Assembly: GCA_025358115.1 (NCBI GenBank)
Contig: JANYKQ010000014.1
Coordinates: 1 to 52,003, forward strand
DNA from: Methanomicrobiales archaeon
GTDB lineage: Archaea; Halobacteriota; Methanomicrobia; Methanomicrobiales; Methanospirillaceae
Length of the DNA: 52,003 bases
Reading direction: 5' to 3'
The translations under genes and the position numbers were made by a program. The notes under the pieces are model-generated. The model saw only the letters and a list, made by a program, of their open reading frames with translations, was not told where the DNA came from and made no database searches. This document shows, piece after piece, positions 13,320 through 24,467 of the stretch (positions are counted from its first letter, which is position 1; each line of letters opens with the position of its first letter).

Positions 13320-14303
13320 TCACCGGGATTGCTGTTTCTTCAACGCCTTTTCAATCGCCCAGCGTCCCCGCCCGAACTCCTCTCCCAGTGCGGCAATGGT
13401 CTCTTTTTTGTTCCTGCCACCTGCCCGGAGGTTCACGAAACGCTCCATGAGCCGGGTACAGTCTTCCTCCGTCCACGGCTTGCCGAGATTCCGGGTCCCG
13501 TTGATGACGGGGGACCGCAGGGTGGGGATGAGATACCCGGGGGTGATGGCTGCCATCTCGGGAATCTGTGTCCCGTACATCCGCTCCGAGATCTCAAACC
13601 CGATCGCCCGGCGGTTCAGACCAATCGCGACTTTGGCAGTTGAAAATCCCCCGAGGAAAAAGTCTGCCACAAGGTCGCCTTCATTGCTGCTGTACTGGAT
13701 CATCTTGGTGAGGAGGGCGAACGGCAGTTCATTCTTGTTCTTGATCCGGCCGGGTTTGTTCTCCCGGTTGATGATCCAGAGATCCTCCCGGTCGGTGTTA
13801 TTGCAGGAGCGCCCGTCCCCGCTCTTCTCTACAAGGCCGTACCGGGATTCGAGATTAAAAGTCCGTCTGCCACCCGGTTTTTCATAGAAAAGGATGTGGT
13901 AGTGGGACGAGACATATTTCCGGCGGGTAAAGACGCCGAAATTATATTTCCAGATGATGTGGTTGATCTCCTTGAGCCGGGTCTGCCGGAGGGCGTTGAG
14001 GATATCGACCAGGTTGGTATAGCCGGAAATGATGTAGATCGAACCCCCCGGGCGGAGCACCCGCTCGGCCTCTTTGATCCAGTTCACGCTGAAGGCCGCA
14101 TACTCCTCCTGCGGAATTTCAACGTACCCCTCAACTACGAACTTCTCGTCCCGGTTGTAGTGCAGGTGGAGTTTATCCCCGTTGATCCCGTACGGGGGAT
14201 CGGTGATGATGAGATCCACGGAATTATCGGGAAGGTTGTGGGCAGCCCCGCTGATGCAGTCGCCCAGGTAGAATATACTGTCGTGGAGGGTTGTGGATTT
14301 CAT
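13320..14303 (-). CDS. Site-specific DNA methyltransferase (beta-type, N4/N6)
   Basis: 327 residues. Motif IV is D35-PPY in DLIITDPPYGIN, and motif I comes later as the DFFLGGFSTAKVA block near 220, the order of beta-class amino-methyltransferases. The linked motif GFEISERMYG (near 240) contacts SAM. Such enzymes methylate exocyclic amino groups of A or C at short DNA sites. The last 60 residues (WTEEDCTRLMERFVNL...) resemble a Myb/SANT-type helical tail that may read DNA. No restriction endonuclease gene is adjacent, so it is an orphan in this window. Confidence 0.88.
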   Translation of the reverse strand: MKSTTLHDSIFYLGDCISGAAHNLPDNSVDLIITDPPYGINGDKLHLHYNRDEKFVVEGYVEIPQEEYAAFSVNWIKEAERVLRPGGSIYIISGYTNLVDILNALRQTRLKEINHIIWKYNFGVFTRRKYVSSHYHILFYEKPGGRRTFNLESRYGLVEKSGDGRSCNNTDREDLWIINRENKPGRIKNKNELPFALLTKMIQYSSNEGDLVADFFLGGFSTAKVAIGLNRRAIGFEISERMYGTQIPEMAAITPGYLIPTLRSPVINGTRNLGKPWTEEDCTRLMERFVNLRAGGRNKKETIAALGEEFGRGRWAIEKALKKQQSR

Positions 14304-17018: not shown

Positions 17019-17702
17019 ATGGATGACAATACCAATGATATGCTCCCCGACCAGCAGCCGCTCGGGGCAGTGACCTTTGCAGAGAACCCCGAGCCGCGGT
17101 GCCCCTGCCTCTTATTGCTCGATACTTCCGGATCCATGGCGGGACAACCCATCACCGAACTCAATGCCGGCATCCGCGAATTTTACAGTGAACTGCAGAA
17201 CGACTCGCTCGCGATAAAGCGCGTTGAAGTTGCCCTGATGTCGTTTGGCCCGGTCCGGCTCATCTCGGAGTTCAATACTGCCGACTGTTTCTTCGATCCC
17301 CAGCTCGTAGCTGAGGGCGACACGCCCATGGGCGAAGCGATCCGGAAAGGCATCGACCTCATCAAGACCCGCAAGGAACAGTACCGGGCAAACGGCATCT
17401 CGTTCTACCGTCCCTGGATCTTCCTCATCACTGACGGCGCCCCGACCGATGAGTGGCAGAGTGCGGCCGCCATGGTCCGGGAAGGCGAGAGCGCAAAATC
17501 CTTTGCATTCTTTACCATCGGCGTCCACAAGGCCGACATGAAGATCCTAAAACAGATATCGGTACGTGACCCGGTCAAGCTCCAGGGGTTGAAGTTCCGC
17601 GAATTTTTCCAGTGGCTCTCCAACTCGATGAAATCAGCCTCGCGGAGCAATCCCGGCGACCGCATCCAGCTCGCTCCACCTCTCGGCTGGAGTGAGATAT
17701 GA
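17019..17702 (+). CDS. TerY-type von Willebrand factor A (VWA) protein
   Basis: 227 residues. The metal-dependent adhesion (MIDAS) site is intact: D35-T-S-G-S in LLLLDTSGSM, T102 in GDTPMGEA and D139 in ITDGAPTDEW. Length and layout match TerY/YegL proteins, which are nearly all VWA domain. GGTGA precedes the ATG. It is the first gene of a three-gene operon with a PP2C phosphatase (four-base overlap) and a kinase. In the known TerY-P triads and E. coli yegL-yegK-yegI the three act together in phosphorylation-linked signalling; the VWA protein is thought to be a scaffold or target. Cytoplasmic: no signal or membrane segment. Confidence 0.9.
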   Translation: MDDNTNDMLPDQQPLGAVTFAENPEPRCPCLLLLDTSGSMAGQPITELNAGIREFYSELQNDSLAIKRVEVALMSFGPVRLISEFNTADCFFDPQLVAEGDTPMGEAIRKGIDLIKTRKEQYRANGISFYRPWIFLITDGAPTDEWQSAAAMVREGESAKSFAFFTIGVHKADMKILKQISVRDPVKLQGLKFREFFQWLSNSMKSASRSNPGDRIQLAPPLGWSEI

Positions 17703-18463
17703 GATGGAAGTACACCTGCGCATCTGTTACCGGAAAAGCCCATACCCAGCGCGGTGAGAACGGCCAGGACAAGTCCCGGGCCGGCACCATCCAGCTCTCG
17801 GATTCTGAATTTTTTATCGGGATTGCCGCCGATGGTGCAGGAAGTACCACGGAAGGGGGTCGTGGCGCAGAGATCGCGTGCGAAACCCTGTACACGCGGA
17901 TCGCTGAAACGGTCCGCACAAAGGGCGACCTTTCAGGAATCACTGACGAGGACGTGAAGGCCTGGATCACCTCCGCCCGGGAAGCGATTATTGCCGAAAT
18001 ACCGCCGGACGGGAAACGGCTGCGGGAATATGCGTGTACGATCCTTGGCGCGGTAGCGGGGGTCGGGGGTTCGATTTTTTTCCAGATCGGCGATGGTGCG
18101 ATCGTGACCGGTACCGGCACGGACTACCAGACCATCTTCTGGCCCGAGCAGGGCGAGTACGCCAATACTACCTATTTCATCACGGATGAGCAGTATCTCG
18201 ATCACCTGCACATTCTCCACGCGGCATTACCTGACGAGATCGCGCTGTTCACCGACGGGCTCCAGAACCTTGTCCTTTCCTTTGCGCTCCGGAAAGCCCA
18301 TCCCGGTTTTTTCCTGCCGCTCTTCTCCGCACTCAGGCAGCACCCGGAGAACGGGTTTTTGCCCTTCTCTACGCAACTCGAAACCTTCCTCTGCCGGGAC
18401 GATATCTGCGCACGCAGCGATGATGACAAGACGCTCGTCCTTGCGGTCCGATTAACGGGTTGA
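17699..18463 (+). CDS. PP2C-type protein phosphatase (YegK-like)
   Basis: 254 residues. PP2C motifs are seen in order: RGENGQD near 18-24, AADGAGS with D45-G46, an IGDGAI block with D133, and LFTDGLQ with D187-G188; a DDKT stretch near the end supplies the last metal ligand. These Asp residues hold the two Mn/Mg ions that remove phosphate from Ser/Thr. It is short for the family and is closest in layout to YegK/TerY-P phosphatases, which remove phosphate placed by the adjacent kinase. The start overlaps the VWA stop as ATGA, and the kinase starts four bases after its stop, so all three are made together. Confidence 0.9.
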   Translation: MRWKYTCASVTGKAHTQRGENGQDKSRAGTIQLSDSEFFIGIAADGAGSTTEGGRGAEIACETLYTRIAETVRTKGDLSGITDEDVKAWITSAREAIIAEIPPDGKRLREYACTILGAVAGVGGSIFFQIGDGAIVTGTGTDYQTIFWPEQGEYANTTYFITDEQYLDHLHILHAALPDEIALFTDGLQNLVLSFALRKAHPGFFLPLFSALRQHPENGFLPFSTQLETFLCRDDICARSDDDKTLVLAVRLTG

Positions 18464-18467
18464 TTTT

Positions 18468-20492
18468 ATGGCGTCCGTTCCCCTCAAACCATTCCTGGAT
18501 CGTTCCGGCAACCGGATTCATCTCGGGAAGAAACTCGGCAGTGGCGGGGAAGGGGACGTGTACGAGATCCTCCCGGCCCATTCGAACGTGGTTGCCAAGA
18601 TCTATCACAAGCCGCTCGATGTACAGAAGCAGGAGAAGTTACTCCTGATGGCGCGGGGCTGCAATGATGAGCTCAAGAGCATCTCGGCCTGGCCAACCGA
18701 TGTGCTCCACGCCAGGGAGGGAGGGCCGGTCGTCGGGTTCCTGATGCCGAAGATCAGCGATTACGAACCGGTGCACAAGGTGTACGGGCCCAGCCACCGG
18801 AAAGAGCACTTCCCCCATGCGGACTGGCGCTTTCTCGTGCGCACGGCCAAGAACCTTGCCGCTGCGTTCTTTGTCATCCACAAGTTCGGGTACGTGATCG
18901 GGGATGTCAACGAGGGAAACATTCTCGTCAACAACGAGGCCTGTGTCCGGCTCATCGACTGCGACTCGTTCCAGGTCCGGGCCGGCGACCGGCTCTATTA
19001 CTGCGAAGTCGGCGTGGCCCAGTTCACCCCGCCCGAGATCCTAAGCTCGAAACATTTTAAGATGGAGCGGACCGCCAACCACGACAATTTCGGGCTCTCG
19101 ATCCTCTCCTTCCAGCTCCTCTTCTTTGGCCGGCACCCCTACTCGGGAGTGTACTCGGGAAAGGAGGATATGCCGCTCGAGAAGTCAATTGCTGAATTCC
19201 GGTTTGCGTATGGGAAAAATTCCGCCTTCAAATCCATTGCTCCCCCGCCCAACTCGGTAGGCCTCTCCGTTGTCCCGGCCCAGGTGGCCGCACTTTTCGA
19301 GCATGCATTTGCAGAAGCCGGGGCCCGGCCCAATGGTCGCCCCGGGGCCGGGGAGTGGTGGGATGCACTCGAATCCCTTGAATCGAAGATGCGGCGGTGC
19401 AGTGCGGACTCCGTGCACAGCTACTACTCGGGACTTGCAAGTTGCCCGTGGTGCAGGCTCGAAGAGAGCTCGGGTCTCCTGCTGTTCTTAAGCGCCGACC
19501 GGATCACCAAGATCGATCTCCCCCGGGAGTGGCAGAAGGTCGAGGCCACCGCCCGCCCGGGCCCGATCCCCTTGATCAGCCCCTCTAATTTCCTCCACCG
19601 TGCAGCACCCCTCCCCCCGGGTATCGGGCATGCCATCGACCTGAGAAATTTCCGACATTTCGTGGGGATCTCGATCATCGTGATCCTGGCCGTGCTCGTT
19701 CTCTTCGGGATGATCACCGAAGATCTCGCGATTCCGTTCCTGATAGTCATCGTTATTGTGGCAGTCCTCTTCCTGTACCCGGGGGCCGCAGCCGCTGAGA
19801 AACGACGGCGACGGGGAAACCTGGAGAGTGCCCGCTACCTCTGGGATCTCTGGAACAAGAAGTGGATTGCCGAGGCCGGCGATGCAGCCTTTTTGGCCCA
19901 GCTGAACCTTCTGCGGGACCTCAGGGGGAAGTACGAGAAGATCGACCGGGATTACCGGGCCAGTCTTCTTGCGCTGGAACGCTCGATCAAGGACCGGCAG
20001 CAGAAAAAATTCCTGGAGCGCTGTAGTATTGACTCCTGCACGGTTCCCCGGGTCACGGGCGGGCTTAAAAATATCTTAAAGTCCGTGGGGATCGGGACTG
20101 CGGCTGATATCACGCGGGGCAAACTGCTCGGCATTCCCCAGCTTGACAATACTCTTACCAATGAACTCCTCGCGTGGCGTGAGAAGATGGAGAAGAATTT
20201 CCTCTTCGATCCCACGCAGGGAATTGACCGGGCCGATGTGCAGGCCCTCATCCACAAGTACCAGCCGATGCTCAAACCCGTTGAGCGGGACCTGGTGCAG
20301 GGTATCCTGAAACTCCAGCGGATACAGGGCGATATCTTAAAAAAACGGATCACACTCAGGCCGGCCGTGGAGAAACGGGCCCGGGAGCTTGCGCAGGCTG
20401 AGGTGGATTACGAAGTGTTCAGCCGGACTCCGGAAGAATTGATCTCGCGGGAGATTGAGGGAATTCTCTTTCCCCGGAAGAATACCCGATAG
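18468..20492 (+). CDS. Membrane Ser/Thr protein kinase with helix-hairpin-helix region (YegI-like, COG4248)
   Basis: 674 residues. Kinase domain about 18-310: Gly loop LGSGGEGDVYE (24-33), K44 in VVAKIY, catalytic loop IGDVNEGN with D146 and N151, metal site DCD (164-166) instead of DFG, and GVAQFTPPE as activation segment. The HRD histidine is absent, as usual in this family. Two membrane segments follow (about 398-445). The cytoplasmic tail has a coiled helix and a helix-hairpin-helix-like GGLKNILKSVGIGTAADITR with GIPQL. A CPWC pair near 325 may bind zinc. GGTTGAT precedes the ATG. It is the effector of the triad, with its phosphatase and VWA partner upstream. Confidence 0.9.
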   Translation: MASVPLKPFLDRSGNRIHLGKKLGSGGEGDVYEILPAHSNVVAKIYHKPLDVQKQEKLLLMARGCNDELKSISAWPTDVLHAREGGPVVGFLMPKISDYEPVHKVYGPSHRKEHFPHADWRFLVRTAKNLAAAFFVIHKFGYVIGDVNEGNILVNNEACVRLIDCDSFQVRAGDRLYYCEVGVAQFTPPEILSSKHFKMERTANHDNFGLSILSFQLLFFGRHPYSGVYSGKEDMPLEKSIAEFRFAYGKNSAFKSIAPPPNSVGLSVVPAQVAALFEHAFAEAGARPNGRPGAGEWWDALESLESKMRRCSADSVHSYYSGLASCPWCRLEESSGLLLFLSADRITKIDLPREWQKVEATARPGPIPLISPSNFLHRAAPLPPGIGHAIDLRNFRHFVGISIIVILAVLVLFGMITEDLAIPFLIVIVIVAVLFLYPGAAAAEKRRRRGNLESARYLWDLWNKKWIAEAGDAAFLAQLNLLRDLRGKYEKIDRDYRASLLALERSIKDRQQKKFLERCSIDSCTVPRVTGGLKNILKSVGIGTAADITRGKLLGIPQLDNTLTNELLAWREKMEKNFLFDPTQGIDRADVQALIHKYQPMLKPVERDLVQGILKLQRIQGDILKKRITLRPAVEKRARELAQAEVDYEVFSRTPEELISREIEGILFPRKNTR

Positions 20493-20978: not shown

Positions 20979-21734
20979 ATGATCGACCACGAGATCAGGG
21001 ATGCCGTCCGGAAGAGCTGGGACCAGTCATCAGTCCGGTATGACAGCTGCTCAGGCCACGGTATCGGGAGCGGGGAAGAGAAAGCCGCATGGGAACGGGA
21101 ACTGGCCCGGAACCTGCCCGGGCCGTCTCTTAAGGTACTCGATGCCGGGTGCGGAACGGGGGCCATGGGCCTCCTCTTTGCCGGGATGGGACACGAGGTC
21201 ACCGGCATCGATCTCTCGGAAGGGATGATGGCAAAGGCACGCGGGAAAGCGGATGCAGAAAATCTTTCCATTGAGTTAATGACGGGGGATGCCGAACACC
21301 TTCCTTTCCATGGTGAATCTTTTGACGTGGTTGTCAACCGGCATCTCGTCTGGACACTTCCTCACCCGGAAGTTGCCTTAAAGGAATGGCACCGGGTCTT
21401 AAAGTCGGGGGGCGTGGTGCTCATCATCGAGGGCGTCTGGACGAACAGGAGTTTTCTCACCCGGGCGAAACGGTGGATGAGTGACGGGCTGGTCCGGGTC
21501 TTTGGCCATGCGCATGGCGGCCATTATGATGAAAAACTCCGGAGTCATCTTCCCCGGGATGGGGGAGTTGCTGAAGAGGCGATGGCAGCTGACCTGGAGC
21601 ACGCAGGATTCACCGGTATCTGCGTCCGGGATTTGATGTACATCCGCGGGATACAGAAACGCGGGCAGCCCTGGTACCTGAGATTTGCACCGGCCAGGAC
21701 GTACTACCTTGTTGCTGCGACAAAAAAGATTTGA
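20979..21734 (+). CDS. SAM-dependent methyltransferase (class I, UbiE-like)
   Basis: 251 residues. Motif I is VLDAGCGTGAMG near 53-64, motif II GIDLSEGM near 76, then GDAEHLPF and the RVLKSGGVVLIIEG block (motif III) near 142-155. This is a Rossmann-type methyltransferase of Methyltransf_11. Archaeal relatives act on small molecules, lipids, quinones or arsenic. The substrate cannot be told: the expected Cys of arsenite enzymes is missing. It stands alone, with AT-rich promoter sequence before it. Confidence 0.85.
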   Translation: MIDHEIRDAVRKSWDQSSVRYDSCSGHGIGSGEEKAAWERELARNLPGPSLKVLDAGCGTGAMGLLFAGMGHEVTGIDLSEGMMAKARGKADAENLSIELMTGDAEHLPFHGESFDVVVNRHLVWTLPHPEVALKEWHRVLKSGGVVLIIEGVWTNRSFLTRAKRWMSDGLVRVFGHAHGGHYDEKLRSHLPRDGGVAEEAMAADLEHAGFTGICVRDLMYIRGIQKRGQPWYLRFAPARTYYLVAATKKI

Positions 21735-23519: not shown

Positions 23520-24467
23520 CTACCGTGTTCCGGATACCGGATAATTCGTGATAATAAGTTCGTTGACATCCCCGCGACAGAGACCATTGCAGTTGATCCG
23601 GCGCCGTGCGGGAATTCGCTCAATGGAAAAACCGTCAAAGAGATCGTCAAAGAAACAATCCTCCGGGTTCTCGTTCTGCGGATCGGAATTGCTCAGCATG
23701 CATTTTGCCCCTTTCGCATCCAGTTCCCGGAAAAATTCCGCGAGCCGGACCTGGTCTGCGTCAGAAAAACCCTTCTTTGAATAGGAGGTGAAAGAGGACG
23801 TAGGGTTGAGCGGCCGGTACGGGGGATCGAAGTACACAAAGGTCTGGTCATCGGCAAATTTCCTGACCGTTTCAAAATCGCCGTGAAGGATCCGCGTGGT
23901 CTTTAACAAACGGGAAACATCCCTGATATTCTCCGCATTCAGGATCTCCGGCTTCTTGTATCTCCCGAACGGGACATTGAACCCGCCTTTCCTGTTCACC
24001 CGGAAGAGACCATTGTAACAGGTGCGGTTGAGAAAGATGATCTGGGCGGCCCGTTCGGTCCAGTCAGCGCTGTACCGGGTGAAATCGATTGCCGGTAATT
24101 TCCGGTTGAAGGCGTTCCGGATCTCATAGTAAAACTCTTCTCTCTCCGTCTCATTGCCGGAGAGGTAGGAAGATTCCAGCTCTCCGAGCAGGGCGATGAG
24201 ATTATCTGTGGATCTCCGGATTGCCTTGTAGGAGAGGACGAGCTCTTCATTGACATCGCAGATGAGCGAATGCTCAAAAGAGAACCGGTTATTGAGCCAG
24301 AAGAAGACCGCACCCCCGCCAATAAAGGGCTCGGCATATTTTGTGATCGTTCCGTTTCTCAGTTCTTCCGGCAGGCGCTTTTCGAACTCGCCGAGTAATT
24401 GTGTCTTGCCGCCTGCCCATTTGAGAAACGGTCGCGCGTATGAACCGGGTTTTGCTGGTATTGCCAT
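23520..24467 (-). CDS. dam: Dam-family DNA adenine methyltransferase
   Basis: 315 residues, the usual length of alpha-class N6-adenine methyltransferases (D12 class). Motif X FLKWAGGK (14-21), motif I EPFIGGGAVFF near 48, and motif IV D214-PPY are intact, followed by SKKGFSDADQVRLAEF, a typical Dam element. It methylates adenine in a short palindrome, commonly GATC in close relatives, though the target cannot be read from sequence alone. No endonuclease gene is beside it. No ribosome site before the ATG. Confidence 0.92.
   Translation of the reverse strand: MAIPAKPGSYARPFLKWAGGKTQLLGEFEKRLPEELRNGTITKYAEPFIGGGAVFFWLNNRFSFEHSLICDVNEELVLSYKAIRRSTDNLIALLGELESSYLSGNETEREEFYYEIRNAFNRKLPAIDFTRYSADWTERAAQIIFLNRTCYNGLFRVNRKGGFNVPFGRYKKPEILNAENIRDVSRLLKTTRILHGDFETVRKFADDQTFVYFDPPYRPLNPTSSFTSYSKKGFSDADQVRLAEFFRELDAKGAKCMLSNSDPQNENPEDCFFDDLFDGFSIERIPARRRINCNGLCRGDVNELIITNYPVSGTR

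Follow-up and report, generated by a model that had tools for sequence, protein, structure and literature searches.

In Escherichia coli, the genes yegL, pphC (yegK) and yegI encode a VWA protein, a PP2C phosphatase and a kinase, and we take yegL to be COG4245 and yegI to be COG4248. The available part of one source describes COG4248 as a kinase combined with helix-hairpin-helix (HhH) DNA-binding domains (PMC3861447), and according to the accessible text of a 2026 paper, which gives no inducing condition for the E. coli genes and names no target, YegI autophosphorylates on serine and is dephosphorylated by PphC (PMC13232886). Modules of a similar make-up, the TerY-P triads, are tied elsewhere to tellurite loci, CoCoNuT and phage defence in the available parts of two further papers (PMC11090510, PMC4978471). 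Here we describe a locus of this kind in 52,003 nucleotides of DNA (contig JANYKQ010000014.1 of assembly GCA_025358115.1; the whole stretch is hereafter called the window) from a Methanomicrobiales archaeon closely related to Methanoregula and to other members of that order; its genome (G000) is 70% complete. Judged by its sequence, the locus is a YegL-PphC-YegI-type triad: the family is known, and this archaeal member has an altered kinase tip. We consider it probable that it works as a phospho-switch, with a membrane-anchored kinase, reversal by the PP2C phosphatase and the VWA protein as adaptor, and that an ancestor of Methanoregula obtained it from bacteria, after which the three genes were maintained together. 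No paper on such a triad in Methanoregula was among those listed in the literature searched, which lacked most subscription journals.

The triad and its proposed mode of action

The three genes occupy positions 17019-20492, all on the + strand, the VWA and PP2C genes overlapping by 4 bp (stop-start) and the PP2C and kinase genes lying 4 bp apart. The first (17019-17702) encodes a YegL orthologue of 227 amino acids (Pfam VWA, 38.3 bits against a cut-off of 23.8; 63% identity over 208 amino acids to E. coli YegL), the second (17699-18463) a PphC/YegK orthologue of 254 amino acids (PP2C_2, 141.5 bits against 24; 33% identity over 252 amino acids to PphC) and the third (18468-20492) a membrane-anchored kinase of 674 amino acids orthologous to YegI (Pkinase, 33.7 bits against 31.7; 37% identity over 645 aligned positions), with identities taken from BLASTP against E. 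coli K-12 proteins. Each is homologous over its length to its E. coli counterpart, and the acidic motifs QD, DGAGS, TDG and DDDKT are present in the phosphatase. The open reading frames (ORFs) and Pfam scores bear out the three genes that an earlier note had read from the DNA letters, including their coordinates, the VWA and kinase domains and the PP2C identity of the middle gene. The order VWA, PP2C, kinase on one strand recurs in 17/17 archaeal and 13/13 bacterial triad loci examined, so the arrangement is not due to chance; this count omits a genome split at contig ends (G023), a contig that starts inside the kinase (L010), a second E. coli locus (L062) and a Microvirga kinase (L059) with neither VWA nor PP2C found in the fetched stretch. 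Given that orthology and order match E. coli, while identity between the VWA protein and the plasmid TerY proteins listed is only about 29-30%, the name YegL-PphC-YegI-type triad fits. The earlier note had named both types; its YegL-YegK-YegI assignment in a Methanomicrobiales archaeon holds, and TerY-P proper does not, as the locus has no TerY-type VWA protein and, among the ten neighbouring ORFs scanned, neither TerD nor TerY-C nor any other ter family apart from a generic methyltransferase match to TehB.

In the mechanism that we propose, a two-helix hairpin would anchor the kinase in the cytoplasmic membrane, with the kinase domain and its Cys3His (probably zinc) site, as well as a stalk with an HhH-derived tip, both predicted to face the cytoplasm. 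The kinase would phosphorylate itself and one or more partners, and the presumably co-transcribed PP2C would strip the phosphates. The VWA protein would act as an adaptor, dependent on the metal of its metal ion-dependent adhesion site (MIDAS), that brings kinase, phosphatase and target together, and its C-terminal serine cluster may in turn be a site of phosphorylation. The stalk tip would bind a partner, in Methanoregula probably a protein rather than DNA, since the nucleic-acid-type hairpins are lost. Autophosphorylation of YegI and the action of PphC upon it are known from E. coli and carried over to the archaeon by analogy; the genes, their orthology and co-inheritance, the catalytic and MIDAS residues, the hydrophobic segments, the loss of hairpin motifs and the purifying selection were computed here.

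A conserved VWA protein and a kinase domain nearer to canonical than that of YegI

Of the three proteins, the VWA protein is on the whole under the strongest constraint. Its mean archaeal-bacterial identity is 57%, versus 33% for the PP2C and 34% for the kinase, and its ratio of nonsynonymous to synonymous substitution rates (dN/dS) is 0.02-0.05 in five pairs; in 4/5 pairs for which all three proteins were measured, the VWA value was the smallest. Purifying selection is also seen in the PP2C (0.09-0.15, five pairs) and in the kinase domain (0.02-0.12, eight pairs). The MIDAS, which had been noted as intact, indeed has all five residues, i.e., the DxSxS motif (D35, S37 and S39; 17121-17135), T102 (17322-17324) and D139 (17433-17435), and these are invariant in 30/30 aligned YegL-type VWA proteins, archaeal and bacterial alike. 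Invariant in the same 30 rows are S201, S203, S208 and S210 of the C-terminal tail (17619-17648), candidate phosphosites or helix caps. This conservation, together with the serine cluster, points to the VWA protein as a docking hub or a substrate, and we favour a hub that is possibly phosphorylated over a substrate alone. The second option, in which the kinase would phosphorylate chiefly these four serines, the PP2C would reset them and the phosphorylated VWA protein would act on the target, is possible, and we entertain it tentatively as the best of the alternatives: the serines lie outside the Pfam VWA match (residues 32-181) and are kept in 6/6 distant rows too (five class-B archaeal, as defined below, and one plasmid TerY-family), although overall identity to TerY is only about 30%. 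Nevertheless, the conserved WLSxS could be structural, capping helices, and the conservation of serines by itself names no kinase.

The kinase domain (residues 18-332, 18519-19463; Pfam match 18-227) was compared across 18 archaeal and 14 bacterial rows, the latter being E. coli K-12 and 13 plasmid kinases, with a second E. coli sequence kept out as a near copy. Mean archaeal-bacterial identity over residues 11-332 is 45%, and a comparison of the two group profiles aligns 640 columns (E-value 1.5e-164). All 18 archaeal kinases keep the Gly-rich loop, K44, the catalytic loop residues D146 and N151 (GDVNEGN in the window, 18900-18920), D164 and the PPE motif; all have DCD (D164-D166, 18957-18965) in place of DFG and [IV]GD at the HRD position (IGD in the window, residues 144-146). 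Among the bacterial rows the catalytic Asp (GD) and D[CSTA]D each occur in 13/14, and the catalytic-loop Asn in 6/14; a Microvirga homologue has lost the equivalents of D146 and D164. As GD replaces HRD, and DxD replaces DFG, in 31/32 of the pooled rows, these oddities are features of the family. At E-values up to 0.1 Pkinase matches 18/18 archaeal and 12/14 bacterial rows, whereas E. coli YegI gives no Pkinase match at E-values up to 1. The window kinase belongs to the Pfam Pkinase superfamily, scoring above the curated cut-off with K44, D146, N151 and D164 in place, and in its motifs it is nearer to canonical kinases than YegI is. The DCD motif and the missing HRD histidine were thus read correctly in the earlier note, but the kinase is no uniquely unusual case for testing, because both traits are family-wide and YegI has already been reported to autophosphorylate.

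Behind the kinase domain lies a feature absent from the earlier description, which is likely a zinc site: a Cys3His set (C311-x5-H317-x8-C326-PW-C329, with its CPWC; 19398-19454) that is invariant in the 18 archaeal and 14 bacterial rows. The pattern C...H...CP[WF]C is also visible in 13/16 of the class-B and TerY-P kinases listed. Sequence searches of the Protein Data Bank (PDB) gave no match to the kinase or the VWA protein at E-values up to 0.01 and no credible one to the PP2C at E-values up to 1; the 60 matches listed for the bacterial-kinase profile contain eukaryotic protein kinases.

An altered tip on a predicted membrane-anchored stalk

The two membrane helices proposed earlier find support in both hydropathy and the structural model, forming a hairpin at about residues 395-440 (19650-19787): the best 19-residue windows, 398-416 and 420-438, reach values of 3.07 and 2.88, and the modelled helices span residues 384-412 and 418-436. 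Beyond the membrane, the region 19785-20447 is modelled by AlphaFold2 (mean predicted local distance difference test score, pLDDT, 86.6) as an antiparallel coiled-coil stalk, whose helices 33-79 and 149-213 of the modelled piece flank a small terminal domain. This tip (residues 512-580, 20001-20207) lines up with the tandem HhH in the bacterial YegI proteins, so that the HhH region of the earlier note is upheld by homology; it is not upheld by hairpin glycines or a Pfam match. Where most bacterial rows have GxG, the window kinase has RVT and QLD, and neither hairpin carries GxG in any of the 18 archaeal kinases, as compared with 10/14 (first) and 12/14 (second) bacterial ones. In the second hairpin D560 is invariant among the archaea, the bacteria having G or S there. 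Pfam HhH models match 0/18 archaeal kinases at E-values up to 0.1, and HHH_5 matches 5/14 bacterial kinases; the hairpin glycines and Pfam match of a canonical nucleic-acid-binding HhH are both missing from the archaeal tip. However, dN/dS across residues 512-580 is 0.07-0.15 in 7/8 close pairs, the eighth having no amino-acid change, and this purifying selection means that the tip is not decaying. Hairpins that are lost while selection continues suggest a tip that has been re-purposed.

DNA or RNA binding by the archaeal tip is therefore doubtful, and so the claim that the kinase acts on a DNA/RNA-bound target is weakened by the absence of both motifs. We regard as unlikely the alternative in which the HhH domain would hold the kinase on DNA or RNA and the protein that the kinase phosphorylates would itself be bound to nucleic acid; this alternative agrees with the COG4248 description and with the glycines and HHH_5 matches kept by bacterial orthologues, and it is at odds with the archaeal hairpins and the invariant D560. 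More tentatively than the switch itself, we suggest that after transfer to Methanoregula the two ends of the kinase diverged in the opposite sense to many bacterial relatives, with the catalytic Asn kept and the tip re-purposed for a new archaeal target, a scenario that in our view is somewhat less probable than its contrary. If true, a membrane-tethered, DNA-linked kinase became one whose long stalk presents a protein-binding tip. The MIDAS, the Cys3His site and the VWA serine cluster, being shared by archaea and bacteria, are likely core to the switch, and the lost HhH hairpins are not.

The C-terminal module of YegI also occurs apart from a kinase. In 5/5 Agrobacterium/Rhizobium plasmid stretches opened, a 293-amino-acid kinase-less relative of this module sits between hxsA and an SH3-domain gene (L083, 6713-7594; L084, 6707-7588; L097, 4707-5588; L098, 4707-5588; L099, 4713-5594), and two of the sequences show a hydrophobic segment and HhH motifs. 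In two Sinorhizobium plasmids (L060 and L090) a whole VWA-PP2C-kinase triad fills the same slot. The module can therefore exist, and presumably works, without the kinase.

Occurrence and origin

In a survey of 24 Methanoregula genomes (our own and 23 others), the full VWA, PP2C and kinase genes are present together in the same 15, and none of the 24 holds a single intact triad gene alone, so that the genes stay together across the genus. One further genome (G015; L075, 8136-10078) has a decayed triad in which the VWA gene is cut to 46 residues, the kinase is broken by stops and a PP2C match is absent at E-values up to 0.001. The stalk-tip module turned up in nine of the 392 genomes sampled from the phylum, all Methanoregula and one of them the decayed copy; the full kinase architecture was seen in no other genus. 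Matches confined to the kinase domain occur in 18 genomes outside the genus, 11 of which have both VWA and PP2C in the same stretch; we refer to triads of this sort, from other Methanomicrobiales and the wider phylum, as class B. Bacterial triads were found on plasmids of Pseudomonadota and Deinococcus, the bacterial sequences consisting of plasmid records plus E. coli. Because the full architecture is confined to Methanoregula among the sampled genomes of the phylum, a bacterial origin is likely.

Trees were built from 12/18 archaeal rows and 13/14 bacterial kinases (Microvirga omitted), with the kinase represented by the first 340 residues of the window protein; plasmid TerY-P and L080 were left out of the kinase and PP2C trees as long branches, and L081 and L082 out of the kinase tree as well. 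With a class-B archaeal root, the Methanoregula kinases form one clade (100/100), as do the PP2Cs (100/99), and both fall among the bacterial rows. A first VWA tree, with TerY and L080 included, did not recover the archaeal YegL rows as one clade. Transfer from bacteria to Methanoregula is in our judgement likely, with its direction unsettled by the trees. The composition of the triad gives no sign of a recent transfer: its GC content is 58.6%, versus 52.6% for the whole window, and its GC at third codon positions (0.69-0.75) is inside the range of ten other window genes (0.54-0.76).

Several observations weigh against the switch as we picture it. A perfect GxG may not be needed for an HhH domain to bind nucleic acid, and GxG is lacking also in 4/14 (first hairpin) and 2/14 (second) bacterial rows. 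That the VWA protein is so conserved may have to do with a function unconnected to the kinase, and for the pair L023/L024 constraint is stronger on the kinase domain than on the VWA protein. At the kinase domain the structural model is poor: of the first 33 ten-residue blocks, 20 have a pLDDT below 50. The distribution is patchy, the triad not being found in 8/24 Methanoregula genomes, three of them at least 90% complete. Furthermore, an approximately unbiased (AU) test does not reject the bacteria as one clade (p 0.058 for the kinase and 0.23 for the PP2C), and the VWA tree puts the bacteria together (67/78); the likely bacterial origin is based on distribution and is not proven by the trees.

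Two side observations came from these searches. The E. coli "plasmid" record L062 has yegI beside yegD, alkA and mdtA as on the chromosome, and other E. coli rows among the plasmid matches have chromosome-like lengths. At L081 (4782-9047), a 1421-amino-acid ORF beside VWA and PP2C genes has two kinase matches in one frame.

Genomic surroundings and remaining alternatives

Pfam was run on ten neighbouring ORFs and PADLOC on eight of these. Two DNA methyltransferases on the - strand flank the triad at a distance of about 3 kb (13320-14303 and 23520-24467), being of the N6_N4 type (best PADLOC match MTase_II, 508 bits) and the D12 class, and a class I methyltransferase (20979-21734, + strand) follows the triad, with a partial PADLOC match to mad2 (E-value 1.5e-22; 160/492 profile positions). 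Other neighbours include a ferredoxin-type protein, a protein of metallo-beta-lactamase fold and DUF2284, and 4/10 have no Pfam match at all. No nuclease, helicase or Hsp70 family was matched among the ten, nor any ter family bar a generic methyltransferase match to TehB. When the ORFs of 15 loci from 14 genomes were clustered (L003 and L071 being one genome), neighbours varied between relatives and no constant partner emerged. A methyltransferase as a conserved extra partner, found beside the triad in seven loci (six genomes), was rejected because the triad-adjacent enzymes fall into two divergent groups, between which partial alignments give only 24-38% identity, and because in G004 a 73% relative of the 20979-21734 gene lies on another contig than the triad. 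A defence island was likewise considered, on account of the two DNA methyltransferases and the partial mad2 match, and set aside for want of a constant defence partner among the neighbours scanned. In bacteria, a J-domain gene near the Cupriavidus triad (L055, 7865-10251) and the Hsp70 gene yegD beside E. coli yegI (L001, 5675-7027) hint at a chaperone link; neither kind of gene is among the ten archaeal neighbours scanned.

It could still be that the triad is an anti-phage or DNA-processing module akin to TerY-P defence, its tip or Cys3His site reading nucleic acid, though we think this improbable. The available part of PMC11090510 connects TerY-P-like modules with CoCoNuT type IV restriction and with stand-alone defence, the distribution is patchy with differing neighbours, methyltransferases lie nearby, and PADLOC relates, besides the mad2 match, the kinase to mad6 (E-value 1.4e-4), also of the MADS system. 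Yet the linkage of methyltransferases to the triad is not constant, the ten neighbours (four of them without a Pfam match) include no nuclease or helicase family, the HhH hairpins are lost, and the VWA protein and PP2C have no PADLOC match at E-values up to 1. The kinase matches cover the kinase domain only (best E-value 3.6e-6 over residues 124-227; STK_OB 0.018), with no full-length anti-phage kinase profile (STK_OB, PD-T4-6) and fused effector domain, and look generic, since mad6 and PD-T4-6 matches much like these are also obtained with a plasmid tellurite kinase. Finally, a pseudokinase scaffold in a module working through the VWA protein alone would agree with the departures from HRD and DFG and with the Microvirga homologue, but is very improbable given that all 18 archaeal rows keep the core catalytic residues and a Pkinase match, and that activity is reported for E. 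coli YegI, which has fewer of the motifs, in the available text of PMC13232886.

Comparison with known systems

The phospho-switch that we propose has its closest described relative in E. coli yegL-pphC-yegI, with which the archaeal locus shares the three genes, their order, the domain architecture, the MIDAS, the DxD motif, the Cys3His site and the two hydrophobic kinase segments. Unlike E. coli, the archaeal locus lacks the yegJ insert of K-12, where 725 bp separate pphC from yegI, and has no Hsp70 family among the ten neighbours scanned. The YegLKI-type triads on plasmids of Pseudomonadota and Deinococcus have the same order, with genes overlapping or abutting, and the VWA protein of Cupriavidus oxalaticus (NZ_CP038639) is 68% identical to the archaeal one; however, the plasmid kinases have mostly kept the HhH glycines and often lost the catalytic Asn, and in three rhizobial plasmids hxsABC lies near the triad. 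TerY-P triads, from tellurite plasmids and CoCoNuT-associated, likewise combine a VWA protein and a PP2C with a kinase whose kinase domain is followed by a Cys-rich motif, but apart from the distant VWA protein they differ in that the plasmid kinase has a Cys-only motif instead of Cys3His and the plasmid locus opened holds a TerY-C metal domain and TerD/TerW genes, which are not among the archaeal neighbours scanned. Class-B triads of the phylum (family f2 and others) have the same three kinds of genes, and at least 11/16 of their kinases listed share IDCD with the archaeal YegI-type kinase, from which they differ in that the match ends at about residue 350 of the query and other C-termini follow. 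In family f2 (L076-L078 and other loci) the gene order is also the same, and the L076 kinase ends in a BACON/Ig-like domain.

These comparisons offer two leads, the serine cluster of the VWA protein for the substrate and the kinase-less stalk-HhH proteins of the hxsBCA loci for the role of the C-terminal module. Set against E. coli YegI, the archaeal kinase retains the Asn of the catalytic loop and scores above the Pkinase cut-off, and its tip is without both GxG hairpins; an orthologue that combines a more canonical kinase with a degenerate tip is a natural comparison for YegI-PphC, a little-studied eukaryote-like pair of kinase and phosphatase in E. coli.

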